Below are positions 4,051-37,177 of a DNA stretch of 54,208 nucleotides, one piece after another. Location of the stretch: the NCBI GenBank assembly GCA_017608295.1, contig JAFCGF010000023.1:1-54208 (forward strand), read 5' to 3'. The notes beneath the pieces were generated by a model. That model ran no database searches, had not been told where the DNA came from, and saw only the letters and a list, made by a program, of their open reading frames with translations. This DNA comes from Candidatus Woesearchaeota archaeon. Lineage in GTDB: Archaea; Nanoarchaeota; Nanoarchaeia; Woesearchaeales; JAGVZT01. A program made the translations under genes and the position numbers. Numbering within the stretch: position 1 is the first letter of the stretch; every line of letters begins with the position of its first letter.

Positions 4051-4147
4051 TTAACAATAAGCATTAGAAATGTATGTAAAAATGTATGTAAAGAAAAAAG
4101 AATGTATCGTAAAACGTTAATTAACAATGTATTATGACACATTCCCG
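4051..4147. other. AT-rich gap between intron relic and tmRNA
   Basis: No gene. It contains a tandem 12-mer AAATGTATGTAA (two copies at about 4068-4091, with a third degenerate copy after it) and the palindrome GTTAATTAAC at 4117-4126. No clear terminator for the tmRNA is visible. Confidence 0.4.
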
Positions 4148-4514
4148 TGGAGTTGGAGGGATTCGAACCCTCGTCCAAACAGGTAGCCACGTTGCTTTCT
4201 ACATGCTTATTCACTGGTTGGTTGTCGGGATCAGACCGGCCAGTGACCAGCCTATCAGATCCTTAGTTCCTGTTATTCGCTGTGAAGTCGGAACGGCCTC
4301 ATAACTATCCCAGCTTTTTCGATGCCTCGTCCGGAACACCGCTGAGAAAGGTTTCCCGGGAGACAATGGCACTTAATTTCTAAAATTAAGCAGCCATTTG
4401 ATATGAATAGTCGCCAGTTATTAATGGCTTGTGAAAGAGTTTTTACGAGACCCCTTCACAAAAACTCGGCATGCTTACAAGGCCACTTCCCTGCTGTCAA
4501 ATCCTGTCAACCCC
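4148..4514 (-). ncRNA. ssrA: Transfer-messenger RNA (tmRNA)
   Basis: Minus-strand RNA beginning GGGGTTGACAGG at 4514 and ending CCAACTCC plus discriminator A at 4148. The two ends form a 7-bp tRNA-like acceptor stem, and a T-arm GGATTCGAACC lies at 4158-4168 (plus-strand reading). The terminal CCA is not encoded. The tag reading frame at 4386-4415 encodes GDYSYQMAA followed by TAA; the ...AA end is the proteolysis tag signature and the initial G is typical of Bacteroidota tags. It rescues stalled ribosomes with SmpB. About 367 nt, a normal length. Confidence 0.96.
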
Positions 4515-22536: not shown

Positions 22537-22620
22537 ATTGCTCGTTACTCATTACTCGCTTTTTTTACCACGAAGGACACGAAGGAAAAATTCCTCATTC
22601 TTTACTCCTCATTCCTCATT
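22537..22620 (-). repeat. Modular intergenic repeat (A-B1-C) ahead of nadC
   Basis: Read in the direction of transcription: a post-stop array GAATGAGGAGTAAAGAATGAGGAA, then TTCCTTCGTGTCCTTCGTGG plus a poly-A run (plus-strand 22561-22586), then GCGAGTAATGAGTAACGAGCA directly before the ATG. The same three parts in the same order occur at 26624-26743 and 29666-29838. Confidence 0.75.
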
Positions 22621-23025
22621 TCACATTATTTCCGTCAACTGAAACAAAAACACTTTGTTTTGCTCTCTCTCCTTTCTCGTTACAAAGTATAGCCGATAGG
22701 TCTTTGTGCCTGATTCCAATTTGCCCAGTGAATAGGAGCTGTCATCACTATTTGTCCCCTCTTTCGTTATTTTCACGGAAGCCACCGGATGCTCTTTGAA
22801 AAACTTCTTCAGGATCATGGAGGCCTGGTTGTGGCTGTAGTTGCCACTGTATCCCGGGATTTGCAGGTCAACCATCGAGTGGAAACCGGAGAGAAGAGCA
22901 GAGATGTTATTCTTTGCTAAGGCAGTCACTATCTGGTCATTTACGGTCTGTGCCGGAAGATAATTTGCCGGGAGGATGATCCCCATCCATAATATCATTA
23001 TTATATATAATCTCCTTTTTCGCAT
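22621..23025 (-). CDS. DUF4783 family exported protein
   Basis: 134 aa. Signal peptide (ILWMGIILPANYLPAQ), then a small alpha/beta domain with LLSGFHSMVDLQIPG and ILKKFFKEHP, as in DUF4783 (NTF2-like fold). Function unknown. It is the first gene of the minus-strand unit with nadC and yihY, a common arrangement in Bacteroidota. Confidence 0.82.
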   Translation of the reverse strand: MRKRRLYIIMILWMGIILPANYLPAQTVNDQIVTALAKNNISALLSGFHSMVDLQIPGYSGNYSHNQASMILKKFFKEHPVASVKITKEGTNSDDSSYSLGKLESGTKTYRLYFVTRKEREQNKVFLFQLTEIM

Positions 23026-23047
23026 CAGGTGTGAGAGTATCTTTTAA

Positions 23048-23063
23048 CAAACATACAAAATTA
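23048..23063 (-). promoter_or_regulatory. Overlapping -7 candidates for DUF4783-nadC-yihY
   Basis: The minus strand carries TAATTTTG (23063-23056) and TATGTTTG (23055-23048) back to back, 23 bases or more before the ATG. A TTTG at 23090-23087 could be the -33 element of the first. Confidence 0.45.
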
Positions 23064-23102
23064 CAGGATAATTGCGACCTTTGCGCCAAATTTCCTGATA
23101 TA

Positions 23103-23573
23103 ATGATTCGTTTGATTTGTATAGGCAAGACAGATGATCGTTCAATCATGCACTTGCTGGATGAATATGAGAAGCGTATTTTCCGGTATGGGAGCTTTGT
23201 GATCAATGAGATCCCTACACTAAAAAAGAGCGCCTCATTCAGCAAAGGGGAATTGAAAACCCGAGAAGGAGAATTGATCCTGAAGCAGATCACAAAGGAT
23301 GATTATGTTGTTCTGCTGGATGAACAGGGAAAAGAGCTGCGGTCGACTGAGTTTGCCTCTTTTCTGAATCAGCGATTCGTGATGGGAGGGAAGAAGCTCT
23401 GTTTTGTCACCGGAGGAGCATTTGGTGTTGACGGGAAAGTGAAAAACAGGGCTGATCACATACTATCATTGTCAAAAATGACGTTTCCTCATCAGCTGGT
23501 CAGGTTGATCTTCGCAGAGCAACTTTACCGGGCGTTGTCCATTCTGCGAAATGAAGCTTACCATCACGAATAG
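23103..23573 (+). CDS. rlmH: 23S rRNA (pseudouridine-1915 N3) methyltransferase
   Basis: 156 aa from the ATG at 23103, which gives the family N terminus MIRLICIGKTD; a longer frame from 23031 adds 24 unlikely residues. SPOUT fold: DYVVLLDEQGKELRSTEFA, CFVTGGAFGVDGKVKNRA for SAM binding, and the C-terminal MTFPHQLVRLIFAEQLYRA with EAYHH. Methylates pseudouridine 1915 of helix 69 in 23S rRNA. Divergent from the nadC unit. Confidence 0.96.
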   Translation: MIRLICIGKTDDRSIMHLLDEYEKRIFRYGSFVINEIPTLKKSASFSKGELKTREGELILKQITKDDYVVLLDEQGKELRSTEFASFLNQRFVMGGKKLCFVTGGAFGVDGKVKNRADHILSLSKMTFPHQLVRLIFAEQLYRALSILRNEAYHHE

Positions 23574-23663
23574 GGAATTTCCTCAGGGAATCTTTAACAA
23601 ATTTTTAACTGATAGCTTAACAATTATTAACAGCCACAATTTTTGCTTTTTTTTTGCATTTCA

Positions 23664-23671
23664 TAATTTTG
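23664..23671 (+). promoter_or_regulatory. Promoter of the moxR-bat operon
   Basis: TAATTTTG with a TTTG at 23642-23645, spacing 18, and the ATG 20 bases downstream. It is the only good promoter seen for the genes from 23691 to 32556. Confidence 0.68.
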
Positions 23672-23690
23672 CGCTCATAAAATTTTAATA

Positions 23691-24683
23691 ATGGTTGAAA
23701 CGGATATTAAAGAATTAAATGAACGGATCCAGAAGGAGAGTGCGTTTGTCGACCTCCTTACCATGGAGATGCATAAGGTGATCATCGGACAGAAGCAGAT
23801 GATCGAACGATTGCTGATTGGATTGCTCACCAATGGACACATTTTGCTGGAGGGAGTACCCGGATTGGCAAAAACGCTGGCAATTAAATCCCTGGCGAAT
23901 ACCATTGACGCAAAGTTCAGCCGCATCCAGTTTACGCCCGATTTGCTGCCCGCCGATTTGATTGGAACGCTGATCTACAGTCAGAAGAAAGAGGAGTTCT
24001 GGGTCAGAAAAGGCCCTATTTTCGCCAACTTCATTCTGGCTGACGAGATCAACCGCTCCCCGGCAAAGGTTCAGAGCGCCCTGCTTGAAGCGATGCAGGA
24101 GCGTCAGGTGACGATCGGAGAAGAGACCTTTAAACTCGATGAACCCTTCCTGGTGATGGCTACGGAGAACCCAATTGAACAGGAGGGAACGTATCCTCTT
24201 CCGGAAGCGCAGGTCGACAGATTCATGTTGAAAGTGATCATTGACTATCCTGATAAACAGGAGGAGAAACTGATCATCAGGGAAAATATCATGGGTGACT
24301 TCCCAAGTACTACTGCTGTAGTAAAGACGGGTGATATCATCCGGGCTCGTGGAGTCGTCCGGGAAGTGTATCTCGATGAGAAGATCGAAAACTACATCAC
24401 GGATATTGTCTTTGCTTCCCGTTATCCTGGTGAATACAAGTTGAAAAAATTTGAAGGACTGATCAGCTATGGCGGATCTCCGCGGGCCAGCATCAACCTG
24501 GCTCTGGCCGCGAAAGCATTCGCCTTCATCAAACGTCGTGGCTATGTGATCCCTGAAGATATCCGGGCTGTGGCTCACGACGTGCTCCGTCACCGTATCG
24601 GCCTCACTTACGAAGCCGAAGCAGAGAACATCACAACGGAAGATATTATCATGGAGATATTAAACACGGTAGAGGTACCATAA
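23691..24683 (+). CDS. MoxR-family AAA+ ATPase
   Basis: 330 aa. Walker A GVPGLAKT near residue 55, Walker B ILADEINR near 116, sensor region MATENPIEQEGTYPLPEAQ, then VDRFMLK and the AAA lid domain. MoxR proteins act as chaperone-like ATPases working with VWA proteins; here the partners are the DUF58 and Bat proteins encoded downstream. First gene of the aerotolerance operon. Confidence 0.95.
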   Translation: MVETDIKELNERIQKESAFVDLLTMEMHKVIIGQKQMIERLLIGLLTNGHILLEGVPGLAKTLAIKSLANTIDAKFSRIQFTPDLLPADLIGTLIYSQKKEEFWVRKGPIFANFILADEINRSPAKVQSALLEAMQERQVTIGEETFKLDEPFLVMATENPIEQEGTYPLPEAQVDRFMLKVIIDYPDKQEEKLIIRENIMGDFPSTTAVVKTGDIIRARGVVREVYLDEKIENYITDIVFASRYPGEYKLKKFEGLISYGGSPRASINLALAAKAFAFIKRRGYVIPEDIRAVAHDVLRHRIGLTYEAEAENITTEDIIMEILNTVEVP

Positions 24684-24765
24684 AATCGTGAATCGTGAAC
24701 CGTGAATCGTGAATGGTTATAACGCTGTCTCACGTCTCACGTCTCACGTTTCACGTCTCACGTAT
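24684..24765 (+). repeat. Repeat spacer moxR to DUF58, with inverted halves
   Basis: After the stop comes (CGTGAATC/A)n, four units at about 24687-24715. Just before the ATG comes (TCTCACG)n, four to five units at about 24729-24763. CGTGA and TCACG are reverse complements, so the two halves can pair into a long imperfect stem. The second array ends two bases before the start codon. Confidence 0.75.
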
Positions 24766-25641
24766 ATGGAGGCTGCTGAAATATTCAGGAAGGTACGCAA
24801 GATCGAGATCAAGACGCGTGGATTGTCCAACCAGATTTTTTCCGGGCAATACCATAGTGTCTTCAAGGGTCGCGGAATGGCTTTCAGCGAGGTGCGGGAA
24901 TATCAGTATGGCGACGATATCCGCAACATCGACTGGAATGTCACCGCCCGTTTCAACCATCCGTACATCAAGATCTTTGAGGAAGAGCGTGAACTTACTG
25001 TGATGTTGCTGATCGATGTGAGTGGCTCGAATCAGTTTGGCACCCGGCATGCCCTAAAACAGGAGGTCATCACAGAGATAGCAGCGGTACTCGCTTTCAG
25101 TGCAATTCAGAACAACGATAAAGTGGGCGTGATCTTCTTCAGCAACCAGGTGGAGAAGTTTATCCCGCCAAAAAAAGGGGTGACACATATTTTACGGATC
25201 ATTCGCGAGTTGATCGATTTTCAACCCGCACACAGGGAGACTAATATTGCTGAAGCGTTGAGATACCTGACCAACGTGATCAAGAAACGGTGTACAGCAT
25301 TTTTACTCTCTGACTTTCTGGATAAAGGTTTTCAGGATGCGATCAAAATCGCCAATAAAAAGCATGACCTGATTGCAGTTCAGGTTTTTGATGTGCGGGA
25401 GACAGAGATCCCTGATGTGGGATTGATCCGGGTGAAGAATGCGGAGACCGGCAAACGGATCTGGGTTGACACCACCAACCGGAAAATCAGACAACGGTAT
25501 CAGAAGTGGTTTGCAAGCCATCAAAAGTTCTTAAATGATATTTTTATCCGAAGCGGTGTCGATGTAGCCCGGGTCAAAACGGATCAGGATTATGTGAAAC
25601 CCCTTATGAACCTGTTCAATAAAAGGGAAGCGCGTAGATAA
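24766..25641 (+). CDS. DUF58 domain protein (VWA-like), BatA/MoxR operon
   Basis: 291 aa from the ATG at 24766; the in-frame ATG at 24709 lies in repeat sequence and would add 19 residues encoded by the array. DUF58 signature GRGMAFSEVREYQYGDDIRNIDWNVTAR near residues 36-62, then a VWA-like core with MIDAS LLIDVSGS (D84). Soluble and probably cytoplasmic; acts with MoxR. Stop at 25639-25641. Confidence 0.92.
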   Translation: MEAAEIFRKVRKIEIKTRGLSNQIFSGQYHSVFKGRGMAFSEVREYQYGDDIRNIDWNVTARFNHPYIKIFEEERELTVMLLIDVSGSNQFGTRHALKQEVITEIAAVLAFSAIQNNDKVGVIFFSNQVEKFIPPKKGVTHILRIIRELIDFQPAHRETNIAEALRYLTNVIKKRCTAFLLSDFLDKGFQDAIKIANKKHDLIAVQVFDVRETEIPDVGLIRVKNAETGKRIWVDTTNRKIRQRYQKWFASHQKFLNDIFIRSGVDVARVKTDQDYVKPLMNLFNKREARR

Positions 25642-25672
25642 TTACGAATTACGAATGAGGAATTATGAATTA
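25642..25672 (+). repeat. Post-stop array running through the next start codon
   Basis: TTACGAATTACGAATGAGGAATTATGAATTA begins right after the DUF58 stop. The ATG of the next gene (25655) is part of it, so the first six or so codons of that protein (MRNYEL) are repeat-derived. Confidence 0.7.
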
Positions 25673-26623
25673 AAATATAAGCTTCTATTATTCCTGCTTT
25701 TCATGAGCGTGGTATCCTTTGCTCAGCAACCGGTTGCCTCCGCAACACTCGATACGAATGCCATGCTGATTGGTGATCAGGTGTTTCTGACCCTTCAGTT
25801 CAGCGGTCCCTCTGAAGCTCAGATCCTCTGGCCATCCATTCCGGATACGATTCTGGAGAAAATAGATGTTCTGGAACGTGAGAAGATCGACACCCTGATC
25901 AGTGAAGAGGGTCAAACCACCTCCTATTCTCAGAATCTCCTGCTTACCTGTTTTGATAGTGGATTCTATACGATTCCGCCCATTTCATTCTACTTTAGAT
26001 TGTTGCCGGATTCAACAATCTATGTTGCAGAAACGCGGATGCACTTCCTGGCTGTTCATACCCTGGCTGTTGACACCACCAAGCCGATTAAACCCATCAA
26101 AGGACCGATGAGAGCGCCATTGACATTCCGGGAGATCCTCCCCTGGATTATCGTTGGCCTTGTCGCCATTGCACTAATTGCTTTTCTTATCTACTACCTG
26201 AGAAAGCGGAAGAAGAAAGAACCCATTTTCCGCATCCGGCCCCGGGTACAACTGAAGCCTCATGAAGTTGCGCTGACAGAGCTCGAGAAACTACGGGTGA
26301 AGCAACTGTGGCAACATGGGAAGGGGAAAGCCTATTATACAGAACTAACTGATATATTACGGAACTATATTGAAGAGCGTTTTCATGTTGCTGCTATGGA
26401 AAGTACCAGCGCTGAGATCCTGCACGATCTGCTGGGAGTGAAGGAAATCAGCCGGAGTGTGTGGGATGAACTTGGCCAGGTACTGATGCTGGCCGATATG
26501 GTGAAATTTGCCAAAGAGAAACCCATGCCCGACCAAAACGAAGAGAGCCTGGAGAAAGGAATACAGTTTGTTAATGATACTCTATATGTTGAACCGGAGA
26601 AAGAAATGAGGAGTGAGGAATAA
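25655..26623 (+). CDS. Bat-operon membrane protein with N-terminal beta domain
   Basis: 322 aa. N-terminal signal segment (LLLFLLFMSVVSFAQQ), a periplasmic beta-rich domain (about 25-155, resembling the first domain of BatD), one span near 160-182 (LPWIIVGLVAIALIAFLIYYL) and a cytoplasmic helical tail with TELTDILRNYIEERFHVAAMESTSAEIL. That tail resembles the C-terminal cytoplasmic part of BatD. Genes of this type sit between DUF58 and batA in Bacteroidota. The last residues (EMRSEE) and the first ones are encoded by intergenic-type repeats. Specific role unknown. Confidence 0.8.
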   Translation: MRNYELKYKLLLFLLFMSVVSFAQQPVASATLDTNAMLIGDQVFLTLQFSGPSEAQILWPSIPDTILEKIDVLEREKIDTLISEEGQTTSYSQNLLLTCFDSGFYTIPPISFYFRLLPDSTIYVAETRMHFLAVHTLAVDTTKPIKPIKGPMRAPLTFREILPWIIVGLVAIALIAFLIYYLRKRKKKEPIFRIRPRVQLKPHEVALTELEKLRVKQLWQHGKGKAYYTELTDILRNYIEERFHVAAMESTSAEILHDLLGVKEISRSVWDELGQVLMLADMVKFAKEKPMPDQNEESLEKGIQFVNDTLYVEPEKEMRSEE

Positions 26624-26743
26624 GGAATAAGGAATAAGGAATGAGGAATGGAAATTGAAAATTAGAAATTAGAAATTTGTTCCTTTGTGAAGCACTTCGT
26701 GTCCTTTGTGGTTAAAAAATGAACGAAATACGAATAGCGAACA
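26624..26743 (+). repeat. Modular intergenic repeat (A-B1-C) ahead of batA
   Basis: A: GGAATAA in three copies then GGAATGAGGAATGG at 26624-26651, followed by AAATTAGAAATTAGAAATT. B1: TTCCTTTGTGAAGCACTTCG then TGTCCTTTGTGGTTAAAAAA at about 26680-26719. C: ACGAAATACGAATAGCGAACA directly joined to the ATG at 26744. The repeats continue from the end of the preceding coding sequence. Confidence 0.75.
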
Positions 26744-27739
26744 ATGTTTAACGGCTTAACATTTGCGAATCCGGGATTTTTGTTCCTGCTGTTGGTCATC
26801 CCGCTGCTGATCGCCTGGTATTTTTACAGATACAGTAGAAATCATGCGGATATTCAGGTCAGCACAACCGAAGGGTTTGAGGGTAAAGGAAAGAGCCTGA
26901 AAATAATCCTCTATCATGCGCTCTATGCCTTTCGATTGCTGGCTATAGCCCTGTTAATCCTTGCTCTTGCGAGACCACAGACCAGTTTACGCAGACAGGA
27001 TGTGACTATTGAGGGAATAGATCTGATCATCGCACTCGACATTTCCGGTTCCATGCTGGCAATGGACTTCAAGCCCGACCGTCTGGAGGCTTCGAAAGAG
27101 GTCGCTATTGAATTTATCGATGGCCGTCCGGATGACCGGGTTGGACTGGTGGTGTTCAGCGGAGAGAGCTTCACACAATGTCCGTTAACAATTGACCACT
27201 CGGTATTGAAGAACCTTTTTCATGATATTAAAAGCGGCATGATCGAAGACGGTACAGCCATAGGGGATGGACTCGCTACAGCAGTGAGCCGCTTGAAGGA
27301 CAGCAAAGCATTGAGTAAGGTAATTATTCTCTTAACGGATGGTGTGAGCAATATGGGATCCATTGATCCGCTTTCAGCTGCAGAGATTGCCAGGCTTTTT
27401 GGGATAAGGATCTATACGATTGGAGTTGGTTCGATGGGAATGGCACCCTATCCGGTGCAAACACCTTTTGGGATGTCTACGCAGAATATGGAGGTGAAAA
27501 TTGATGAGCCATTGCTTCAGGAGATTTCCGGCATGACAGATGGGAAGTATTTCAGGGCTACCAGCAATGCAAAACTAAGAGAGATCTACAGGGAGATCGA
27601 TCAAATGGAAAAGTCCAAGATCGATGTCACAGAGTTCCGGCGGAAGATAGATGAATATGTGCCACTTATTTTGATTGCGCTGGCATTGTTCGGATTGGAA
27701 ATGTTGTTGAGATACACGGTTCTAAGGAATATTCCGTAG
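26744..27739 (+). CDS. batA: BatA, VWA membrane protein (aerotolerance)
   Basis: 331 aa. Two N-terminal spans (about 10-27 and 58-76), then a VWA domain with a complete MIDAS: LIIALDISGSM (D99), a Thr in the PLTIDHS segment and LTDGVSN. A C-terminal span (VPLILIALALFGLEMLL) follows. The domain faces the periplasm by analogy. Bat proteins were named for aerotolerance in Bacteroides fragilis; the molecular role is unsettled. Confidence 0.93.
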   Translation: MFNGLTFANPGFLFLLLVIPLLIAWYFYRYSRNHADIQVSTTEGFEGKGKSLKIILYHALYAFRLLAIALLILALARPQTSLRRQDVTIEGIDLIIALDISGSMLAMDFKPDRLEASKEVAIEFIDGRPDDRVGLVVFSGESFTQCPLTIDHSVLKNLFHDIKSGMIEDGTAIGDGLATAVSRLKDSKALSKVIILLTDGVSNMGSIDPLSAAEIARLFGIRIYTIGVGSMGMAPYPVQTPFGMSTQNMEVKIDEPLLQEISGMTDGKYFRATSNAKLREIYREIDQMEKSKIDVTEFRRKIDEYVPLILIALALFGLEMLLRYTVLRNIP

Positions 27740-27849
27740 GGAATTACGAATTATGAATTAAGAATTACGAATAACCCCCAGCCCCCTAAAGGGGGAGTAA
27801 GTCCCCTTCAGGGGATTTAGGGGTAAAAAACGAATAGCGAAAAACGAAC
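27740..27849 (+). repeat. Modular intergenic repeat (A-B2-C) ahead of batB
   Basis: A: GAATTACGAATTATGAATTA and AAGAATTACGAA right after the stop. B2: a 44-bp element at 27781-27824 with outer arms CCCCTAAA and TTTAGGGG and inner G/C runs, able to form a strong hairpin. C: AAAAAACGAATAGCGAAAAA then CGAAC joined to the ATG at 27850. Confidence 0.78.
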
Positions 27850-28875
27850 ATGTTCCGATTTGCACATATAGAGTACTTTTATCTTCTGGCCCTGATCCCG
27901 GTCTTTATAGCGCTTGTGATCTGGCTTTTTGTCTGGAGGAAAAAGGCATTGCAGCGATATGGACAACTCTCTTTGATTAGCCGGCTGTTGCCTGATATGT
28001 CCAACTTAAAGTTGATCCTGAAGTTTGTGTTGATGATGGTGACCTGGGGATTGCTGGTGTTTGTGCTGGCCGGCCCGCAGACAGGTTCTAAACTGGAAAA
28101 AGTGCAACGAAAAGGAATCGACCTGATCATTGCTCTTGATGTATCCAATTCCATGCTGTCTCAGGATATCAAACCCAACCGGCTAGCCCGTGCCAAGCAG
28201 TCGATCAGCAGGCTCATTGATAAACTGGAGGGAGACCGGATAGGGGTCATTGTGTTTGCCGGAAAAGCATATACCCAACTTCCCATTACAACGGATTATG
28301 CAGCAGCCAAGATGTTTGTGTCCACGATCAATCCCGGGATGCTCCCTACCCAGGGAACAGCTATCGGGGATGCCATTGATCTGGCAATAAAAACATTCGG
28401 GGAATCGAAAAAAAATAAAGCGTTGATCTTGATCAGCGATGGGGAAGATCATGAAGGGAATGTCCTGGAGCAGGCTGAGCTGGCTGCATCCAAAGGAGTC
28501 ACTATCTATACAATTGGCATGGGATTGCCTGAAGGGGGACCGATCCCGGTATACAATGGAGATGTCCTGGTTGGTTTTAAGAAAGATAAAGATGGAAATG
28601 CCATTGTCAGCAAACTGGATGAGACTCTCTTACAACGGATAGCTACCATTGGTAATGGGATGTATGTCCGGGCAACCAATTCAGAAACAGGCTTAAACAG
28701 GATCTTTGACGATATCAACGAAATCCAGAAGTCGGAGATAGAGAGCAAGCAGTTTGCGGATTACGAGAATCAGTTCCAGTATTTTCTGGCGATTGCATTG
28801 ATCCTGATGATAATGGATTTGTTTATTTTTGAAAAGAAAACATTCTGGCTGAAACAAATAAAACCGTTTAACTAA
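27850..28875 (+). CDS. batB: BatB, VWA membrane protein (aerotolerance)
   Basis: 341 aa. N-terminal spans at about 8-28 and 57-76, a VWA core with MIDAS LIIALDVSNSM (D97), LISDGEDHEGN and TIGMGLPEGGPIPV, and a C-terminal span (FLAIALILMIMDLFIF). Paralogue of BatA, with which it probably pairs. MIDAS residues are intact. Confidence 0.93.
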   Translation: MFRFAHIEYFYLLALIPVFIALVIWLFVWRKKALQRYGQLSLISRLLPDMSNLKLILKFVLMMVTWGLLVFVLAGPQTGSKLEKVQRKGIDLIIALDVSNSMLSQDIKPNRLARAKQSISRLIDKLEGDRIGVIVFAGKAYTQLPITTDYAAAKMFVSTINPGMLPTQGTAIGDAIDLAIKTFGESKKNKALILISDGEDHEGNVLEQAELAASKGVTIYTIGMGLPEGGPIPVYNGDVLVGFKKDKDGNAIVSKLDETLLQRIATIGNGMYVRATNSETGLNRIFDDINEIQKSEIESKQFADYENQFQYFLAIALILMIMDLFIFEKKTFWLKQIKPFN

Positions 28876-28990
28876 TTAAGAATTAAGAATTATGAATTAA
28901 GAATGAACCTTCAGCCCCCTAAAGGGGGAGTAAGTCCCCTTCAGGGGATTTAGGGGTTAAATAAAAAACAAAAAGCGAAAAGTGAACAGT
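28876..28990 (+). repeat. Modular intergenic repeat (A-B2-C) ahead of batC
   Basis: A: TTAAGAATTAAGAATTATGA and following units after the stop. B2: positions 28914-28957 are identical, base for base, to 27781-27824. C: AAAAAACAAAAAGCGAAAAG then TGAACAGT joined to the ATG at 28991. Confidence 0.78.
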
Positions 28991-29665
28991 ATGAGAATTG
29001 CATTAATTTTGGTTTTGGTTGGTATGTCGCTGGCAGGGTTTACACAGAAGGAGAACAGATTTCTTCGTGAGGGTAACCGGAAATTCAAGCAGGGCGATTA
29101 TCAGGAAGCTGAAAAAGATTACCGGAAAGCCCTTGAGGTCAACAATGAATCGGTGAAAGGGCAATTCAACCTGGGTGCCGCCGTTTATGAAGAGAAGAAC
29201 TACGAGGAGTCGGCCGGCATTTTTACCGGTCTGGGTGAGAAAAACCTTCCCAAACCTGTTAAGTCGGGAGCCTATCACAACCTGGGGAACTCACTGTTGG
29301 AAGCGAAAGAGTATGAAAAGAGCATTGAAGCTTACAAGCAGGCGTTGATTAACAATCCAACAGATCTGGATTCGAAGTACAACCTGGAGTATGCCAGGAT
29401 GAAATTGCAACAGCAACAACAACAGCAACAACAACAGAACCAGCAAAATAAAGATCAACAGGATAAAGAGGAAAAGGATCAACAGGATCAGCAGAATAAG
29501 GATCAACAGGATCAGCAAAAGCAACCCCCAAAGCCCGATAAGATCTCCAAAAAGGATGCTGAACGAATGCTGGAGGCGATGAAGAATGACGAAAAAAAGA
29601 CCATGGAGAAAGTGAAGAAGCAGAAAGCAAAAATAGGAGTGATTGCTATTGAGAAAGACTGGTAG
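28991..29665 (+). CDS. batC: BatC, TPR protein with Gln-rich tail
   Basis: 224 aa from the ATG at 28991 (signal peptide MRIALILVLVGMSLAGFTQ). A GTG at 28982 would add three residues. Three TPR units cover about 23-130 (GNRKFKQGDYQEAEKDYRKAL, GNSLLEAKEYEKSIEAYKQAL). A low-complexity tract follows from about 137 to 180: eight or more consecutive Gln, then QNQQNKDQQDKEEKDQQDQQ units. The charged C terminus is rich in Lys. Periplasmic scaffold for the Bat complex by inference. Confidence 0.88.
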   Translation: MRIALILVLVGMSLAGFTQKENRFLREGNRKFKQGDYQEAEKDYRKALEVNNESVKGQFNLGAAVYEEKNYEESAGIFTGLGEKNLPKPVKSGAYHNLGNSLLEAKEYEKSIEAYKQALINNPTDLDSKYNLEYARMKLQQQQQQQQQQNQQNKDQQDKEEKDQQDQQNKDQQDQQKQPPKPDKISKKDAERMLEAMKNDEKKTMEKVKKQKAKIGVIAIEKDW

Positions 29666-29838
29666 CACGTTGGAAATGAGGAATGAGGAATGAAGAATGA
29701 GGAATAGATAACCATTAGGGGTTCAGGGGATTACAAAAAGGAACGCAAAGAGCATTTTCCTTGGTGTCCTTCATGAAGCACTTTGTGTCCTTCGTGGTAA
29801 AAAAAAGCGAATAGCGAATAACGAACAGCGAATATAGA
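29666..29838 (+). repeat. Modular intergenic repeat (A, B2 scrap, B1, C) ahead of batD
   Basis: A: GAAATGAGGAATGAGGAATG then AAGAATGAGGAATAG at about 29673-29706. A B2-like scrap TTAGGGGTTCAGGGGATT is at about 29715-29732. B1: TCCTTGGTGTCCTTCATGAA then GCACTTTGTGTCCTTCGTGG plus poly-A at about 29757-29806. C: GCGAATAGCGAATAACGAAC then AGCGAATATAGA joined to the ATG at 29839. Confidence 0.78.
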
Positions 29839-31698
29839 ATGTCTAACAGAATCGTTATAGGATTCATTTTTATGTTGTTTGGCTTGAACCTGGCGGGTCA
29901 GGAGGTTGAGTTCACTGCTTCCGTCAAACCGGTCGTATCAGTAGGGGAGACGTTTATGTTAACCTATTCATTAAATGCTCAGGGGGTGAATTTCAGAGGA
30001 CCGCAAATCCGTGGGCTGAATGTGCTCTCCGGACCGAATACATCCACAACCTCCAGCATCCGTTCCATCAATGGCCGGACCTCCATGACCATCTCCTATA
30101 CCTATTCTTATATATTGCAAGCTTCACGAGTAGGAAATTATGAGATCCCGGCAGCCACAGTTACTGTTGATGGAAAGAGTTACTGGTCGAATAAAGCAAC
30201 TATCCGTGTACAGACCGGAACCGCAGGTTCACAGCAACCTGGTCAAGCCAATAAGCCGGGGGCGCAGCAGACACCTGCTCAGGGAGGTGTTCAAACCAAT
30301 GCAAATGATGTATTCCTGAAAGCATATGTGAACAAAGCAAGGTCTTTTCAGGGAGAAGGCATTATTGTGACATACAAACTTTTTACCAGGGTGCCGATCG
30401 CACAGATCTCCATCAGCAAGCTCTCATCCTTCCGGGGATTCTGGTCCCAGAATCTGTTACGCGACAACGAACGTTTTCCACAGTACAATCAAACCATTAA
30501 CGGGGAGCAGTATGTTGTTGCTGAGATCAGGAAGATCGCTCTCTACCCTTTGAAGAGCGGGAAGCTGACGATTGAACCACTTGAGGTTGAATGCGTTGCT
30601 CAGATAAAAAGGCAAACACGGCAGCGAACAGGAGATCCATTTTTTGATGACTTTTTCAACAACAGTTTCTTCTCCTCTTCTTATGCAACGGTTGAAAAAT
30701 CTCTCAAGTCCAACCCGATTATCATTAACGTCAAAACACTTCCTCTGGAAAATAAACCAGCCTCGTTTGGCGGAGCGGTCGGATCTTTCACCTTCCGTTC
30801 AGAGATTGATAAGACTACCCTTCAGACCAATGAATCGGTTACCCTGAAATTTGTGGTCTCCGGAAAAGGAAATATTCAGTTGATTGAGAAGCTGAATGTC
30901 ACGTTTCCACCAGATTTTGAGGTTTATGACCCGAAGATCGTCAGCGATTATAAAACAACAGCTTCCGGTGTCACCGGGATGCAATCCTTCGAGTATCTGA
31001 TCATTCCAAGGAAACCGGGCGAGTTTAAGATCAAGCCGGTTACGTTCAGTTATTTTAATCTGGCCAGGCAATCATACGTGACACTAAGTAGCCCGGAGTA
31101 TACGCTGAATGTGGAAAAAGGGAGTGGAGAATCTGCCGTTATAACCTATACCGGGGCGAACAAAGAGGAGATACAATACATCGGCAGTGATATCCGGCAT
31201 ATTGAGAACCAGGATTTTACAATTCGGAAAGCGGACACGGGCTTTTTTGGCTCATTGGGATACTTTCTCCTCCTTTTCATCCCGTTGATACTCTTTATAG
31301 CTCTACTGATATTCTTTAAAAAGGAAGCGGCCCGAAGGCGTGATATACGATTGATGAAAAACCGGAAAGCTACCCGGGTGTCACGTAAACGGCTAAGGAA
31401 AGCAGAGGCATTCATGAATGCCGGAAAGCAGAATGATTTTTACGAAGAGATCTCCCATGCTTTATGGGGCTATCTGAGTGATAAATTTGGTATACCACTG
31501 GCCGAATTATCGATGGACTCGGTAAAGGATGCATTGCGACGAAAAGAGGTAAGCGATGAGATCATCGACCAGTTTATATCTACGTTGAATGAAACTGAGT
31601 TTGCCCGTTTTGCTCCGGGTGATAAGACGTTGAAGATGGAGGAGATCTACAGCAAGGCGATGGAGATCATTTCCAGGATTGAAAGGGATCTTAAATAA
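29839..31698 (+). CDS. batD: BatD family protein (oxygen tolerance)
   Basis: 619 aa. Signal segment (IVIGFIFMLFGLNLAGQEVEF), then repeated beta-sandwich domains of the BatD family (YTYSYILQASRVGNYEIPAA near 90-110, FKIKPVTFSYFNLARQSYVTL near 395). One span lies near 470-492 (YFLLLFIPLILFIALLIFF), followed by a basic juxtamembrane segment and a cytoplasmic helical domain. A Pro/Gln/Gly linker sits near 130-150. Fits the BatD length and plan. Confidence 0.92.
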   Translation: MSNRIVIGFIFMLFGLNLAGQEVEFTASVKPVVSVGETFMLTYSLNAQGVNFRGPQIRGLNVLSGPNTSTTSSIRSINGRTSMTISYTYSYILQASRVGNYEIPAATVTVDGKSYWSNKATIRVQTGTAGSQQPGQANKPGAQQTPAQGGVQTNANDVFLKAYVNKARSFQGEGIIVTYKLFTRVPIAQISISKLSSFRGFWSQNLLRDNERFPQYNQTINGEQYVVAEIRKIALYPLKSGKLTIEPLEVECVAQIKRQTRQRTGDPFFDDFFNNSFFSSSYATVEKSLKSNPIIINVKTLPLENKPASFGGAVGSFTFRSEIDKTTLQTNESVTLKFVVSGKGNIQLIEKLNVTFPPDFEVYDPKIVSDYKTTASGVTGMQSFEYLIIPRKPGEFKIKPVTFSYFNLARQSYVTLSSPEYTLNVEKGSGESAVITYTGANKEEIQYIGSDIRHIENQDFTIRKADTGFFGSLGYFLLLFIPLILFIALLIFFKKEAARRRDIRLMKNRKATRVSRKRLRKAEAFMNAGKQNDFYEEISHALWGYLSDKFGIPLAELSMDSVKDALRRKEVSDEIIDQFISTLNETEFARFAPGDKTLKMEEIYSKAMEIISRIERDLK

Positions 31699-31770
31699 TT
31701 ATGAATTATGAATTATGAATTACGAATTTTCCCTTAATGACCTTAATGACTTTAATGACCTTAATGACCA
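31699..31770 (+). repeat. Tandem arrays between batD and batE
   Basis: (ATTATGA)n, three to four units, then ATTACGAA directly after the stop (31699-31725). A second array follows of CTTAATGAC/CTTTAATGAC units (four copies, about 31732-31768) running into the ATG of batE. There is no B1 or B2 element here. Confidence 0.75.
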
Positions 31771-32556
31771 ATGATTAACTGCATCAAAATAAAAACCAGG
31801 TTACAGCTTTTTCTTCTGATATCTGGCTTCTTTTTTCTGGCTTCCGGGCTTTTCGCGCAGGAACCACAGGCAATTATTGCAGAAGGGAACAAAACATATT
31901 CTGACGGGCTTTATTTGGATGCTGTTACGCTCTATCAACAGGTTGCAGAATCCGGTTTTGAAGCGCCGGAACTTTATTATAACATCGGGAACTCCTACTT
32001 CAAGTTGAATGATTTTCCACATGCCATTCTCTGGTATGAACGCGCCAGCCGATTGGATCCGGGAAACGAAGACATCGACTACAATTTGAATGTTGCAAAC
32101 AGCAAGATCGCGGATAAAATTGATCCTCTTCCGGAACTCTTCTATATCAGATGGTACAGGAGCTTGCTCAACCTTTTCCCTGTAAACACATGGGCGATTC
32201 AAACCATCGCTTACTTCATCTTTACACTGGTGGCTGTATCCTTGTATTTCATCTCCCGCAGACTATTCCTGCGCAAAACAGGCTTCTGGGCTGCGATTTT
32301 ATTTCTTTTGCTCACATTGTTTACGGTACTCTTTTCTGTTTCCGGCTATCACCGGATGAAGACCCTTCATGAGGCGATTGTCTTTGATCCTACCATTACA
32401 GTGAAAAGTTCACCGGATGAGAAGAGCATTGACCTCTTTGTGATTCATGAAGGGACAAAGGTTCAACTTCTTGATAAGATCGGCGAATGGTATGAGGTCC
32501 GTATCGCCAATGGATCCGTCGGGTGGCTTCCTGAAGAGTCGCTGGAGGAGATTTAA
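31771..32556 (+). CDS. batE: BatE, TPR and SH3b membrane protein
   Basis: 261 aa. Signal segment (LFLLISGFFFLASGLFAQ), TPR units at about 33-105 (YYNIGNSYFKLNDFPHAILWYERA), two membrane spans at about 135-155 and 167-188, and a C-terminal bacterial SH3 domain at about 198-261 (VKSSPDEKS, GTKVQLLDKIGEWYEVRIAN, GWLPEESLEEI). Last gene of the bat operon; the order moxR, DUF58, extra protein, batA, B, C, D, E is complete. Confidence 0.9.
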   Translation: MINCIKIKTRLQLFLLISGFFFLASGLFAQEPQAIIAEGNKTYSDGLYLDAVTLYQQVAESGFEAPELYYNIGNSYFKLNDFPHAILWYERASRLDPGNEDIDYNLNVANSKIADKIDPLPELFYIRWYRSLLNLFPVNTWAIQTIAYFIFTLVAVSLYFISRRLFLRKTGFWAAILFLLLTLFTVLFSVSGYHRMKTLHEAIVFDPTITVKSSPDEKSIDLFVIHEGTKVQLLDKIGEWYEVRIANGSVGWLPEESLEEI

Positions 32557-32644
32557 TTTCTCATTTCTCATTCCTCATTCCTCCTGCATCGAACCAATCT
32601 CCGGTTTTTCTCGACAACCGAGGGAAGTTCATAGATAAAAATTT

Positions 32645-32675
32645 TTTGCAGAATTAACTTTTTAAATTATATTTG
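32645..32675 (+). promoter_or_regulatory. Complete Bacteroidota promoter, -33 and -7
   Basis: TTTG at 32645-32648, 19-base spacer, TATATTTG at 32668-32675. The leader to the ATG at 32746 is about 65 bases. The best-formed promoter in the window. Confidence 0.75.
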
Positions 32676-32745
32676 TTGGTTTAAACGGAACTTCGATAAA
32701 TAACAATACACATACACAAAATATCAAATAATTAAAACCAGGGAT

Positions 32746-35541
32746 ATGAAAAACAGATTTTTACCATTTGGCTTTTTAGTGTTATTTCTAGGGTTCTCTT
32801 GCCTGCTGTTTTCCAATTCTGCGATTGCTACAAATCCGGATAATAACACACCAGATCAAACCTCCGATGTTCGGATGCATCAAATCCGGAGTAATCAGGC
32901 AACTGGATTGATCAATCCGGCTGATGTACTGGCAGCCAGGTACCAGCTTGAACTGATGCAGCAGAAATCAACGGCAGCCATAGGCCTGAATTGGATGCAG
33001 GTCGGGCCAACCAACTATGCCGGCCGTTCTCGTGTCGTTTTATTTGACAACCAGGATCCGGATGCAATGACAATATACACAGGAGGTGTATCAGGAGGTG
33101 TCTATAAATCAACGAATAAAGGCCTGACATGGCATGTTCAGAATACAGCATCTTCTGAAGTACTGAGGGTTTCGGCTATGACACAGACTTCAAATGGAAC
33201 ACTCTATGTTGGAACAGGAGAATTATACTGTGATGGAGCTGAATTCATGGGAACCGGACTCTATCGCTCTGTCGATGGAATGAATTTTACAGTGATTCCT
33301 GGAACCCAGCCCCTCTACAATGATCCCCTGTCGAATTGGGCATTCATTCTGAAACTGGCTGTTGATCCAAACAGTGGAAGGTTGTTTGCGGCTACCAACA
33401 GCGGAATTAAATATTCTGATGACGGCGATACATGGATAAATCTTATAATGGGATTGGCGATTAATGTCGTGGTTGGCTCTGACGGTACCGTCCTCTTTGA
33501 TGTTGACGGGCATGTGTACGTTGCGGCAGGAGGTGACCTTAACAACATCGTGGATGTATCTACCGGCGCAGAAGATATGCTGCCGATAGACAATGTTGGA
33601 TGGATGGGCCTGGCAATTGCACCCTCCGATCCCAATGTGATGTATGCAAGTATTGCAAAAGCTTCCGATGACTTTTTGCTGGGTGTTTACTGCTCGGATG
33701 ATAAAGGGGCCACATGGTCATTGATATTTCCTCCCAATCCTACATATGAACCCTTTGGCGGGAGTGGATGTTATGCGAACACAATTGAAGTTTTCCCGGA
33801 TAATCCGGACAAGGTATTATTGGGTGGTATCGGTGGCTGGATGGGCAGCAAATACCAGGAAACCGGGTATTTTGACTGGCAGATGGTCTCTTTCAACTTT
33901 TTTGGAACCAATGTCACTTTTACGCCCTTTTTTCATCACGACTATGCCTTTCGTCCCAATAATCCAACTGAGTTTGCCATCGCTTCATCAAATGGGATTA
34001 CATTAGCAATATTCGGCGCTGAAGGTATTGATTATCAAACAAGCAATAAAAATCTGGTGACTTCACAATTCAATTCCGTCACCATGACACGTCTTGACAA
34101 ATGGATCATGGGTGGTGGGGTTCGCGTAGGCACACAACTTTTTAATGCTGTTCCGCAGAATTCACCCCAATATGGGTACATACCGCCTACCTCGTTTGGA
34201 ACGGGTACTTTCTGCGAATGGTCTCAGCTCCAACCCAATTACATCTTTTTCTCAGGCACAAATTTTGGCAATAGAGAACCCTACATCCGGTCCGAAAACC
34301 TGGGTGAAGCTGCTGCACTTACATTTCTCGGTTCGATCTCAAGTACGACTACAGATTATCTCCCGAGTATCCTGTGGGAGACGGATGATTTCCAGTATTC
34401 AACCGACACCGTATGGCTTTATGCCCGTCATGGAACGATTAAAGCCGACTCGACAGTCCTTGTTCAAAGCATGAATTGCTACCAGTGTCCAATTGAATTT
34501 ACAGTTCCAACCACAATCCCGGAAGGAGACAGCATGGCTCTCATTGATCCCTATCATTCGAGGTTCTTTATTTATGGGACCAGTACAGGAAATCAGGGTG
34601 TCTATATGTCCCAGGATGCGATCAAATTTTACAAAGAGCCGGTTTGGTTCCAGATTGGTGAAACAACGGATATCCTCACATGTATGGCTCTTTCAAGCGA
34701 CCTGAATTACCTCTGGGCCGGAACTGATAACGGGAAATTGTACAGGTTCTCAAACCTGACTATGGCCCTTGATTTCAATACGGCTGATATAAGTAGTCCC
34801 TATTGCATTGTATCCCGTAACATTTATGAGTATCCCGATATGGATGGCAGGTATATAACCAATGTGGCAATTGATCCGAATGATGACAACAATATCCTGG
34901 TTACGCTGGGGAACTATGGAAATGATCATTTTATCTATGTGACCGAAAATGGTCTTGATTCTGTTCCTGAATTCATATCTGCCCAGGGGAATTTACCGAA
35001 AATGCCTGTTTTCGACGGATTGTTTGAGATGCATGGTAACGGCACGGTGATCGCGGGTACCGATATGGGAGCGTTCAGCACCGGTAACATCTTTGCCGTC
35101 TCACCACAATGGGCTCAGGACATTCAAGGCATGGGAGATGTTCCTGTGACAGATCTGGAACAGCAGACATGGGAGAACTATCGTGTGCAAAATATCGGAT
35201 ACATTGCCGCTGCTTCTTATGGGAGAGGTCTTTTCTACGACACCACCTACTATTCACCTCTTGGAGTTGACCCGGTTGCGGGTGATCAGAGAGATATTTC
35301 ATCCATTCAGATCCACCCCAATCCGGTTCAGAACACAGCCAATATAACCTATACATTGCCGGAAACCAGGCAGGTTACTGCCTATGTCTATGACCTTACA
35401 GGCAGGTTGATGACAACCGCTGCTTTCGGCACGCAACTTCGCGGCACCCATACATCTGTCCTTGACCTGAGCATGTTGCCAAAAGGCACTTACATCATCA
35501 AAGTGAATACAGCTTATGGCAAAGTGGTGAAGGCAAATTAG
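32746..35541 (+). CDS. T9SS cargo with sortilin/BNR-type beta-propellers
   Basis: 931 aa. Signal peptide (FLVLFLGFSCLLFSNSAIA). Repeated BNR/Asp-box-like blades: GGVSGGVYKSTNKGLTWHVQ near 113, YVGTGE, GLYRSVDGMNF, GIKYSDDGDTWINL near 223 and GVYCSDDKGATWSLI near 316, as in VPS10/sortilin-type and glycosidase propellers. The C-terminal type A T9SS sorting domain (about 850-931) has IHPNPVQNTANITY and PKGTYIIKVN. A large surface protein; the ligand or substrate is not evident and no catalytic motif was seen. Confidence 0.88.
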   Translation: MKNRFLPFGFLVLFLGFSCLLFSNSAIATNPDNNTPDQTSDVRMHQIRSNQATGLINPADVLAARYQLELMQQKSTAAIGLNWMQVGPTNYAGRSRVVLFDNQDPDAMTIYTGGVSGGVYKSTNKGLTWHVQNTASSEVLRVSAMTQTSNGTLYVGTGELYCDGAEFMGTGLYRSVDGMNFTVIPGTQPLYNDPLSNWAFILKLAVDPNSGRLFAATNSGIKYSDDGDTWINLIMGLAINVVVGSDGTVLFDVDGHVYVAAGGDLNNIVDVSTGAEDMLPIDNVGWMGLAIAPSDPNVMYASIAKASDDFLLGVYCSDDKGATWSLIFPPNPTYEPFGGSGCYANTIEVFPDNPDKVLLGGIGGWMGSKYQETGYFDWQMVSFNFFGTNVTFTPFFHHDYAFRPNNPTEFAIASSNGITLAIFGAEGIDYQTSNKNLVTSQFNSVTMTRLDKWIMGGGVRVGTQLFNAVPQNSPQYGYIPPTSFGTGTFCEWSQLQPNYIFFSGTNFGNREPYIRSENLGEAAALTFLGSISSTTTDYLPSILWETDDFQYSTDTVWLYARHGTIKADSTVLVQSMNCYQCPIEFTVPTTIPEGDSMALIDPYHSRFFIYGTSTGNQGVYMSQDAIKFYKEPVWFQIGETTDILTCMALSSDLNYLWAGTDNGKLYRFSNLTMALDFNTADISSPYCIVSRNIYEYPDMDGRYITNVAIDPNDDNNILVTLGNYGNDHFIYVTENGLDSVPEFISAQGNLPKMPVFDGLFEMHGNGTVIAGTDMGAFSTGNIFAVSPQWAQDIQGMGDVPVTDLEQQTWENYRVQNIGYIAAASYGRGLFYDTTYYSPLGVDPVAGDQRDISSIQIHPNPVQNTANITYTLPETRQVTAYVYDLTGRLMTTAAFGTQLRGTHTSVLDLSMLPKGTYIIKVNTAYGKVVKAN

Positions 35542-35570
35542 GAATCAGGAATTATAAAAAAATTCAACAA

Positions 35571-37067
35571 ATGAAAAAAGTTTTATTCGGTTTAATATTC
35601 GTTGTTATCAGTCTCGGAATGACTGCTCAAACGCTGGTATATACTCCGGCATTGGAAACCCCGGTTGATAGTGCTACAGATCAGATGCCTGATGTGGTTC
35701 TGAACTGGCATGCGGTTACCGGCACCACAAATCTCCAATATCAGATGCAGATGGACACCAGTGCGAATTTCGACTCTCCACTGCTTGTTGATGTGACACA
35801 AACATTACTTACCGGATACCAGACCGGCAATTTGCTCTTCAACACGATGTACTATTGGCGGGTAAGAGCCATTGATGGATCGACTTCTTCCTGGTCGGAG
35901 GTGTGGGAATTCACAGTTTTCAACACAGTGACCCTCTACAAACCTTCAAACAATGCCAGCAACCAGGTATCAAACGTTGATCTTAGATGGAGAAACAAGC
36001 TCAATAGCATTGATGTGACCGGAGTGGAGTTCTTCAATTACCAGGCCGATACGAGCATGAATTTTGACTCACCCCTTCTGATTGCAGGCACTGTGAATGG
36101 AGATGTCTTCATTGTCGCCACGGAGTGGCTTCGGTTTGGAGGACACTATTACTGGAGGGTTCAGGCTGGTCATTCGGCATCAACCGGTGATTGGACAGAG
36201 CCTTTTGAATTCGATGTACTTGATGCTGTGATATTGAGCTCACCAAAAAATAATGCCACAGACCAGGTACTTGACGTCCTGTTAAAATGGAAAGCAGTTG
36301 GTGGTATCCTTTCATATTGTTACCAAATTGCTGCCGACGAGAATTTCAACAATCTTATATTCTCAGGTGAGACAGACCTGCTTCAGATCAAAGCAGAATT
36401 TCTGATGTTCGGTATTGACTACTGGTGGAGAGTTCGTGTTCGTCATCAACATGATACATCGACCTGGGGAGAGCCAAGAAAGTTCACTTCGATCAACACA
36501 GTCCTGTTATCGTCACCCAGCAGCAATCAGATAAATGTCTTAACGAAGCCAACCATGATTTGGTCTGCCCAAACCGGCATTACCGGTTATCAGTTGCAGA
36601 TTGCTACAGATATAGGCTTTACGGATCTCTTTTACGACATCATGCCGGATCCGGATGTTCATAGTGTCAAGGTCACCAAGAAAATGGAACCGCAAACGGA
36701 TTACTTCTGGAGGATGCGGGCGTTCAGTGATGGAGGTGCTACAGCTGACACAACCGATTGGAGCGATCCCTGGAAATTCACTACCGGGTTCGCTCAGGGA
36801 ATTGGAGATCAAAAACCTGCTGCCTTTCGTATTTACCCGAACCCGGCCAGCGGTCAGGCCTTCATGAAGATCCGTGTTCAGGAGTCAACAGAAGCTCAGT
36901 GCAAAGTAATTGATTTGCTGGGCAAAACTGTTCTTGAGCAGGAGATCTCCCTGAATATGGGCGAGAATATACAAGCGATCAATCTCGACAATGTTCGTCA
37001 GGGCATCTACATCATTCGCCTGACCATTGATGGAGAGACGATGAATCAAAAGCTGGTAGTAGAGTAA
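35571..37067 (+). CDS. T9SS cargo with four FnIII-like repeats
   Basis: 498 aa. Signal peptide (VLFGLIFVVISLGMTAQ). Four repeats of about 95-100 aa, each with L-x-x-P-x-N/D-x-A-x-x-Q near its start, YQxxxDxxFxxL and YYWRVRA...W.EPxxF, typical of fibronectin III-like modules in secreted Bacteroidota proteins. The C-terminal T9SS domain has FRIYPNPASGQAF and IIRLTIDGETMNQKLVVE. It lies 29 bases after the propeller gene and is likely co-transcribed; both would be exported together. Confidence 0.9.
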   Translation: MKKVLFGLIFVVISLGMTAQTLVYTPALETPVDSATDQMPDVVLNWHAVTGTTNLQYQMQMDTSANFDSPLLVDVTQTLLTGYQTGNLLFNTMYYWRVRAIDGSTSSWSEVWEFTVFNTVTLYKPSNNASNQVSNVDLRWRNKLNSIDVTGVEFFNYQADTSMNFDSPLLIAGTVNGDVFIVATEWLRFGGHYYWRVQAGHSASTGDWTEPFEFDVLDAVILSSPKNNATDQVLDVLLKWKAVGGILSYCYQIAADENFNNLIFSGETDLLQIKAEFLMFGIDYWWRVRVRHQHDTSTWGEPRKFTSINTVLLSSPSSNQINVLTKPTMIWSAQTGITGYQLQIATDIGFTDLFYDIMPDPDVHSVKVTKKMEPQTDYFWRMRAFSDGGATADTTDWSDPWKFTTGFAQGIGDQKPAAFRIYPNPASGQAFMKIRVQESTEAQCKVIDLLGKTVLEQEISLNMGENIQAINLDNVRQGIYIIRLTIDGETMNQKLVVE

Positions 37068-37140
37068 TACGAATTACGAATTACGAATTACGAATTGCGA
37101 GTGGCACATAGCGCTGTTCGCAATTCGCTTTTCATGTATC
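37068..37140 (+). repeat. Post-stop GAATTAC array and hairpin between convergent genes
   Basis: TACGAAT units repeat four times straight after the stop (37068-37098). A perfect 10-bp inverted repeat CGAATTGCGA (37091-37100) and TCGCAATTCG (37118-37127) has a 17-base loop. It may serve as a bidirectional terminator between the T9SS gene and pyrE; there is no clean U-tract except TTTT after 37128. Confidence 0.55.
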
Positions 37141-37177
37141 ATGTATCTCATATCCCACATCTGGCCTCTATCAAACT

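Follow-up and report, generated by a model that had tools for sequence, protein, structure and literature searches.

Heptamer repeat arrays at stop codons in the bat operon region of a Bacteroidales-like contig

Introduction

The STRR repeats of cyanobacteria are heptanucleotide tandem repeats for which slippage has been proposed, and the long simple sequence repeats treated by Mrazek in 2007 are reportedly ascribed to slippage as well. In this study, arrays of 7-base units were analyzed in a stretch of 54,208 nucleotides (nt), hereafter the window (GenBank assembly GCA_017608295.1, contig JAFCGF010000023.1, positions 1 to 54,208, deposited as Candidatus Woesearchaeota archaeon), where they help to form spacers between the genes of the aerotolerance (bat) operon and lie next to stop codons.

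Two described systems are similar to these arrays. The heptamers GGGAATC and GGGGA(C/T)T of Xanthomonas and Nostoc have downstream copies that are mostly on the coding strand and lie 0-50 bp from the stop codon or over it; between co-directional genes, either strand has about as many repeats as the other, no regulatory role is identified, and most sites are common to two related species, with extensive variation in length and sequence (Rehm et al., 2015, PMC4692102). TAACTGA arrays occur in Beggiatoaceae, Cyanobacteria and Bacteroidetes, five of the last being treated, and are found near starts in the main genome; in forward orientation they close all reading frames (MacGregor, 2015, PMC4679880). 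The initial annotation of the window, made from sequence alone, had it that no described system of this form was known, which is mistaken, since these two papers document coding-strand heptamers next to or over stops (PMC4692102) and heptamers near starts (PMC4679880).

Results

Heptamer arrays in the window

Among the 27 gaps that measure 20 bases or more, a lag-7 detector found 12 arrays in 9, while 500 dinucleotide shuffles gave a mean of 0.02 arrays and a maximum of 1, and the identical detector returned 0 or 1 array for each of the other periods from 4 to 13. Autocorrelation over the 27 intergenic segments was strongest at lags 7, 14 and 21 (z = 9.3, 6.0 and 4.1), the next best value being 3.2 at lag 3. 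A 13th array (25640-25672) sits in a 13-base gap and is hence additional to the 12 detected. Judged by eye, about 10 of the 13 arrays consist of GAATNNN units; a few other units occur, TAACTGA is not among them, and no window unit has the GGG tract that marks the G-quadruplex subtype of Rehm et al. The units are therefore not unrelated from gap to gap, as had been claimed, and the proposed period of 7-10 bases narrows to 7, with one 9-base array only.

All seven intergenic GAATNNN arrays of the window run in sense, and their distance to the stop upstream of them is -6 to +15 nt; the one further GAATNNN array, at 38164, is intragenic. Two of the 13 arrays (24727 and 32556, by eye) run against the preceding gene. 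The 9 array-bearing gaps are all among the 11 gaps of 22537-37177, with none among the other 16 (P-value = 1.2e-5, Fisher test, the limits of the interval having been set post hoc).

Placement at stops and starts in other Bacteroidales

The genome-wide question of placement was tested on samples of other Bacteroidales, comprising five genomes (G207, G001, G231, G205 and G019) and 80 related bat loci, the best 80 of 589 MoxR matches; the stretches of G207, G001 and G231 were picked mostly around GAAT matches. Including the window, the pooled set holds 251 arrays, 229 of them intergenic. For 164 arrays, with the window left out, 65 array ends lay within 15 nt of a stop, while random placement within the same gaps predicted 35.7 (standard deviation 4.7), and none of 2000 placements gave as high a number. 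The enrichment was detected separately in G205 (P-value below 0.0005), G207 (P-value = 0.0015) and the 80 loci (P-value = 0.0145). The stop-adjacent placement reported for the window is statistically real and is seen again in other genomes. No enrichment was found on the start side, where 25 ends of the same 164 arrays lay within 15 nt of a start and 27.8 were expected.

The initial annotation had described a third module, C, touching the start codon. Stretches of GCGAATA type do precede several ATGs in the window, but there is no general bias to starts (25 against 27.8), and module C as a start-codon element was rejected, since starts are not enriched in the pooled samples. General purine loading behind stops was also rejected as an account of the arrays: array-free DNA behind 920 stops has 51.6% purine and stop-adjacent arrays have 60.4%.

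Runs of four consecutive GAATNNN units turned up in 136 of the 295 genomes that were sampled from the order. A reversed-pattern control also matches in some genomes, which hold other heptamers; the gaps of G207 are full of further ones (TGCTGGA, CCAGCAN, CACTCGG and ATCAGAA).

Orientation relative to stops

Sense bias is strong at stops and vanishes a short way behind them. With the window left out, GAATNNN arrays were sense to antisense 11:0 when at least 3 nt into the gene and 20:3 at -2 to +15 nt (31 to 3 within 15 nt of stops), followed by 9:7 at 16-40 nt, 5:17 at 41-100 nt and 6:14 beyond; one array was doubled and one palindromic array scored both ways, both outside the first two bins. 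The antisense excess further out is partly expected, since a sense array at one of two convergent stops counts as antisense to the other. Intragenic arrays account for 11 of the 91 in this set. For all heptamers, the purine-rich strand was in sense in 78 of 108 stop-adjacent arrays; for arrays 16-60 nt away the count was 21 of 48, for those more than 60 nt away 26 of 76, and for those at starts 20 of 38. The initial annotation had orientation always following transcription and took random position and orientation as the outcome that would speak against it. Two arrays in the window are reversed (24727-24763 and 32556-32583), but the sense bias at stops is real and recurrent; over the samples, arrays are non-random at stops, unbiased at starts and free of sense bias 16-40 nt behind stops.

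Part of this bias comes from the stop codon itself. Where a stop lies wholly inside an array, the stop-bearing strand is in sense in 25 cases and not in 2, and such arrays must carry that strand in sense. All three stop bases are matched in phase by 29 of 54 stop-overlapping arrays, while arrays starting 0-15 nt behind a stop have no phase relation to it (1.02 of 3 bases). The idea that every array grew out of the stop of its gene was rejected, as the phase match is restricted to stop-overlapping arrays (2.41 of 3 bases). A remainder of the sense bias does not follow from stop-containing arrays.

One alternative is that the arrays are functional elements of 3' ends or translation, which insulate frames or mark transcript ends, with module C as an A-rich initiation region. 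Stop-bearing units would close all three frames, because 7 cannot be divided by 3, and among nine listed units of window or G207 type, seven carry a sense stop and six have no antisense stop. The confinement of sense bias to near-stop arrays agrees with such a role, and in Xanthomonas quadruplex-capable repeats coincide with a transcript start or stop at a higher rate than controls do (PMC4692102). However, GAATTAC, GAATATC and like units have no sense stop, the preference for the stop-bearing strand is absent at 0-5 nt behind stops (6 to 10), starts are not enriched, and the arrays change fast, with GAATNNN x4 in only 136 of the 295 genomes; a study of eubacteria reportedly obtained no evidence that additional stop codons are selected for (PMC6764699). 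We regard this role as doubtful. The narrower proposal that all-frame stop supply is the sole cause of orientation was rejected, as neither the arrays at 0-5 nt nor the stop-free units bear it out.

Spacers added behind conserved stop codons

The region encodes nadC, a SPOUT methyltransferase and the bat operon, with genes for MoxR, DUF58, a product weakly matching DUF4381, two proteins of vWA/BatA type, TPR, BatD and TPR/SH3. The window looks Bacteroidales-like: among the best 80 of 589 matches, its MoxR protein is closest to uncultured Bacteroidales, with 87% in locus L002.

Six of the seven bat gaps in the window are 72-173 bases long. Over the 80 related loci, 405 bat gaps were measured, 265 of at most 20 bases and 53 of at least 70, with median lengths of -1 to 21 at six of the seven positions and 46 between moxR and the DUF58 gene. 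Six of the eight bat proteins of the window end at a residue shared with relatives (VEVP, NIP, EKDW, LK and others), so the arrays there begin right behind the ancestral stop. Together, the short gaps of relatives and the conserved C-termini indicate that the spacers are additions placed directly after stops that already existed. An artefact of open reading frame calling is ruled out for these six genes by the conserved C-termini; the genes at 25655 and 27850 end variably. In 21 of the related loci, inspected by eye, certain gaps contain their own heptamer arrays (ACTGAAG in L018 and AGTTNNN in L042, for example), and TTCGCTA, module C reversed, stands before the DUF58 start in L002.

The initial annotation divided each spacer into an array at the stop (A), a middle element (B1 or B2) and module C, and presented the spacers as a feature of the bat operon, which holds in part, as arrays also occur outside it (37068). 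Features are as follows.

22537..22620, minus strand: A-B1-C spacer from the DUF4783 gene stop to the nadC start (array 22590-22627, B1 core 22567-22584)
24684..24717, plus strand: CGTGAAT array right behind the moxR stop
24727..24763, minus strand: GTGAGAC array (GTCTCAC on the plus strand), an inverted relative of the preceding CGTGA-core array
25640..25672, plus strand: AATTACG/GAATGAG array touching the DUF58-gene stop, with the ATG predicted for the following gene (25655) inside it
26616..26677, plus strand: module A, GAATAAG/GAATGAG array containing the stop of the 25655 gene
26681..26719, plus strand: module B1 (core 26695-26712), resembling one arm of the G205 palindromic repeat
26720..26743, plus strand: module C ahead of the ATG at 26744
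27741..27775, plus strand: module A, GAATTAC/TAT/TAA array behind the BatA-like gene stop
27774..27826, plus strand: module B2 (core at 27803), a G+C-rich double hairpin of -29.1 kcal/mol (shuffles -22.1, z = -2.2)
27830..27849, plus strand: module C ahead of the ATG at 27850
28874..28907, plus strand: module A, AATTAAG array that overlaps the second vWA gene's stop
28907..28959, plus strand: module B2 (core at 28936), a copy of 27774-27826 (z = -1.6)
28959..28990, plus strand: module C ahead of the TPR gene ATG at 28991
29675..29705, plus strand: module A, AATGAGG array 9 nt behind the TPR gene stop
29760..29802, plus strand: module B1 (core 29781-29798)
29803..29840, plus strand: module C, GCGAATA array running into the batD ATG (29839)
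31697..31728, plus strand: AATTATG array overlapping the batD stop
31732..31769, plus strand: CCTTAATGA array of period 9, the sole 9-base array noted
32556..32583, minus strand: GAGGAAT/GAGAAAT array (ATTCCTC on the plus strand), touching the stop of a gene to which it is antisense, a counter-example to sense orientation
37068..37100, plus strand: TACGAAT array right behind the stop of the 35571-37067 gene, outside the bat operon

In the nadC spacer (22537..22620), a GCGAGTA-type stretch adjoins the ATG. The two inverted related arrays of the moxR/DUF58 gap form a long hairpin (24684-24765, -32 kcal/mol, z = -5.3), and the 25655 gene has both its predicted ATG and its stop supplied from within arrays. 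The predicted stability of the B2 double hairpins exceeds that of shuffles only to a modest degree (z = -2.2 and -1.6).

Searches with Rfam at the gathering score gave three matches in the window and none inside the spacers. One is a group II intron match at the left edge (27-102, 65 bits), whose intron-encoded reverse transcriptase, if any, lies outside the window; another is a transfer-messenger RNA gene on the minus strand (4145-4514, 154.5 bits).

Copied spacers, dispersed elements and unit dialects

The B1 elements at 22567 (minus strand), 26695 and 29781 and the B2 elements at 27803 and 28936 are present as the initial annotation had them. The two A-B2-C spacers (27740 and 28876) align at 96 of 106 positions over nearly their full length, beginning behind the stop and ending shortly ahead of the start, and are one copied cassette of common origin. 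B1 and C are partly common to the other spacers (53 of 60 positions for 29666 and 26624, 40 of 46 for 29666 and 22537, 23 of 25 for 26624 and 22537); reverse-strand scores were lower. Insertion had been suggested to be repeated, templated or slippage-driven; 7-base slippage fits the sister genomes described below, but independent assembly of each spacer does not fit the B2 pair (96 of 106).

B1 (at most 1 mismatch) was found in 16 of 50 genomes picked mostly for GAAT arrays, and B2 (at most 2 mismatches) in 10 of these genomes. In G205, two of the three places tested show B1 as palindromes whose 23-nt arms are separated by 8 nt; the window has a one-arm-like sequence only. B2 has different larger carriers in G019 and G231, and both elements occur on both strands in copy-rich genomes. 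A strict form of B1 was not found in the six nearest genomes searched, and B1 gave no match against phages. A plasmid location of B2 was rejected, as one record of 72,556 gave a 26-base match.

Some carriers were seen as elements in their own right. G205 (L196-L215) has a dispersed CTTTGTG-rich element with the inverted 23-nt arms described above, and CCTGCCTGCCGGCAGGCAGG lies in one arm of some copies. In G231 (L252-L255), a dispersed carrier of the B2 core starts with AGTGGCTTATTG and ends with CACTA, unlike that of G019 (L176-L195), where many of the viewed loci have the core within a conserved element of greater length, CTGCTAAAAATCAGCAG...AAGGCTTTTTAGAC.

Array units are alike within a genome. 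Similarity of the NNN profiles was 0.301 within and 0.079 between the window, G207, G001 and G231 (8, 20, 20 and 21 arrays, base composition unmatched), a contrast that none of 2000 permutations reached. Among 111 matches between gaps of G207, 90 are confined to the array, 7 extend more than 12 nt beyond it and 14 have no detected array.

These dialects bear on a second alternative, in which a dedicated writer or mobile element puts 7-base-periodic DNA behind stops and rewrites it genome-wide. Besides the dialects themselves, the membership of B1 in a dispersed palindromic family in G205 speaks for it, as does the contrast of 109 GAATNNN x4 matches in G207 with 3 in its sister G292, the arrays often being at shared sites. 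No candidate enzyme was found among the 40 of 42 predicted genes scanned in the window, however, and conversion with slippage could give an equal picture. Such a writer appears improbable. The initial annotation was right that no transposase is near: none was found among these 40 genes scanned with Pfam, 3 of which have no family match.

Array turnover between sister genomes

G292 and G207 are 86-94% identical in long alignments. For 48 G207 gaps from five loci, 25 orthologous gaps were compared: 10 have arrays in both genomes, 3 in G207 only, none in G292 only and 12 in neither (P-value = 8.7e-5, one-sided Fisher test). Sister lengths differ by 6-167 bases in array gaps and by 0-3 bases in 10 of the 12 array-free gaps. 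At L171:12213, the TTCGTTA units of G207 stand against TTCCTTA/TTGTTCC in G292; at L162:5902, G207 has TTCGCTA and G292 has CTCGTTG; the two are in register beside the gene, and the first unit retains the stop. The unit is unchanged at L167:2784, and at L161:3310 the array is missing from G292, which is 74 bases shorter there. Over the genomes, GAATNNN x4 matches number 109 in G207 and 3 in G292. Array sites thus persist between the sisters, and their units often turn over.

At one post-stop site, G292:C245 (L286) has CCCTTCGACAAGCTCAGGACAAGCTC where G207 has a GTACCAG array.

An assembly or binning artefact of metagenome-derived sequence could be suspected, as many of the sources are metagenome-assembled genomes and one sister-genome match is split over two contigs at the array gap. 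But many genomes have arrays in the interior of contigs (GAATNNN x4 in 136 of 295), and the flanking genes are intact, with stops at a conserved residue, which makes an artefact extremely improbable.

A related proposal is that GAAT-core heptamers are actively placed in sense directly behind stops in some Bacteroidales, perhaps also in Xanthomonas, whose unit likewise includes GAAT, and rewritten to the dialect of the genome. Sister genomes would then keep sites and swap units. We consider active deposition quite unlikely.

Discussion

The arrays are a variant of the known heptamer-repeat class, and their origin by 7-base slippage, with spread by copying and a placement sieved by selection, is in our opinion the probable explanation. 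The spacers would then be period-7 simple-sequence repeats combined with two interspersed families of hairpin or palindrome elements, and composite pieces would have been copied into the short gaps of the bat operon, as the alignment of the B2 spacers demonstrates for that pair only. Arrays would lengthen and shorten in 7-base steps through slippage, to judge from the sister genomes, and copying or conversion between loci may keep units similar within a genome, as the dialects suggest. Selection would decide which arrays survive, the DNA from the stop codon onward being a free place: a 7-base change within a gene shifts the frame, and inserts close to the start that follows would interfere with initiation or promoters.

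Several observations weigh against this explanation. The closest relative, L002, is intermediate, with 1-76 bases in six measured gaps instead of gaps near zero. Stop enrichment is not significant in G001 (P-value = 0.118) or G231 (P-value = 0.157) alone, and a choice of stretches mostly around GAAT matches applies to these two and G207. The sense bias of 20:3 at -2 to +15 nt is partly unaccounted for by stop codons: of the arrays 0-5 nt behind the stop, 6 have their stop-bearing strand in sense and 10 do not, and the Xanthomonas unit GGGAATC, with similar placement, is stop-free on both strands. Slippage alone does not produce shared dialects, which were moreover compared at unmatched base composition, and the mostly array-confined matches in G207 make copying of whole cassettes a minority there. 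In the sister comparison, 23 of the 48 gaps were dropped, one of their flanks not being found.

On the explanation by slippage, copying and selection, a little-studied class of bacterial simple repeats is extended to uncultured Bacteroidales, with three testable properties: addition behind an old stop, sense bias limited to stops, and fast change of units at lasting sites. If dialects come from copying between loci, they would represent concerted evolution of very short repeats in bacteria. The window also illustrates that a compact operon can gain spacers of 72-173 bases.

A literature search found such arrays in Bacteroidales only in PMC4679880 (TAACTGA), a search by sequence words returned no title on them, and neither a genome-specific unit dialect nor a copied A-B-C spacer was found. 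With the TAACTGA repeats, the present arrays share heptamer arrays in gaps, 7-nt indels between strains and the closing of all frames in forward orientation; the unit differs, and placement is at stops here and mostly at starts there. The dispersed palindrome of B1 in G205 and the dispersed hairpin of B2 resemble the REP/BIME palindromic repeats. The STRR repeats and those of Mrazek are not known to be placed at stop codons, and in this they differ from the arrays here. The repeats of Rehm et al. share the period of 7, the mostly intergenic location and the coding-strand position at or over stops, which holds here in the pooled samples (G001 and G231 singly are not significant). The Xanthomonas GGGAATC is itself a GAATNNN unit (GAATCGG), and strands are about equally represented away from stops here and overall in that paper. 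In contrast to those repeats, the present units have no G-tracts, so no quadruplex is expected, and each genome has many kinds of unit in genome-specific variants, combined with B1 and B2 into copied spacers.

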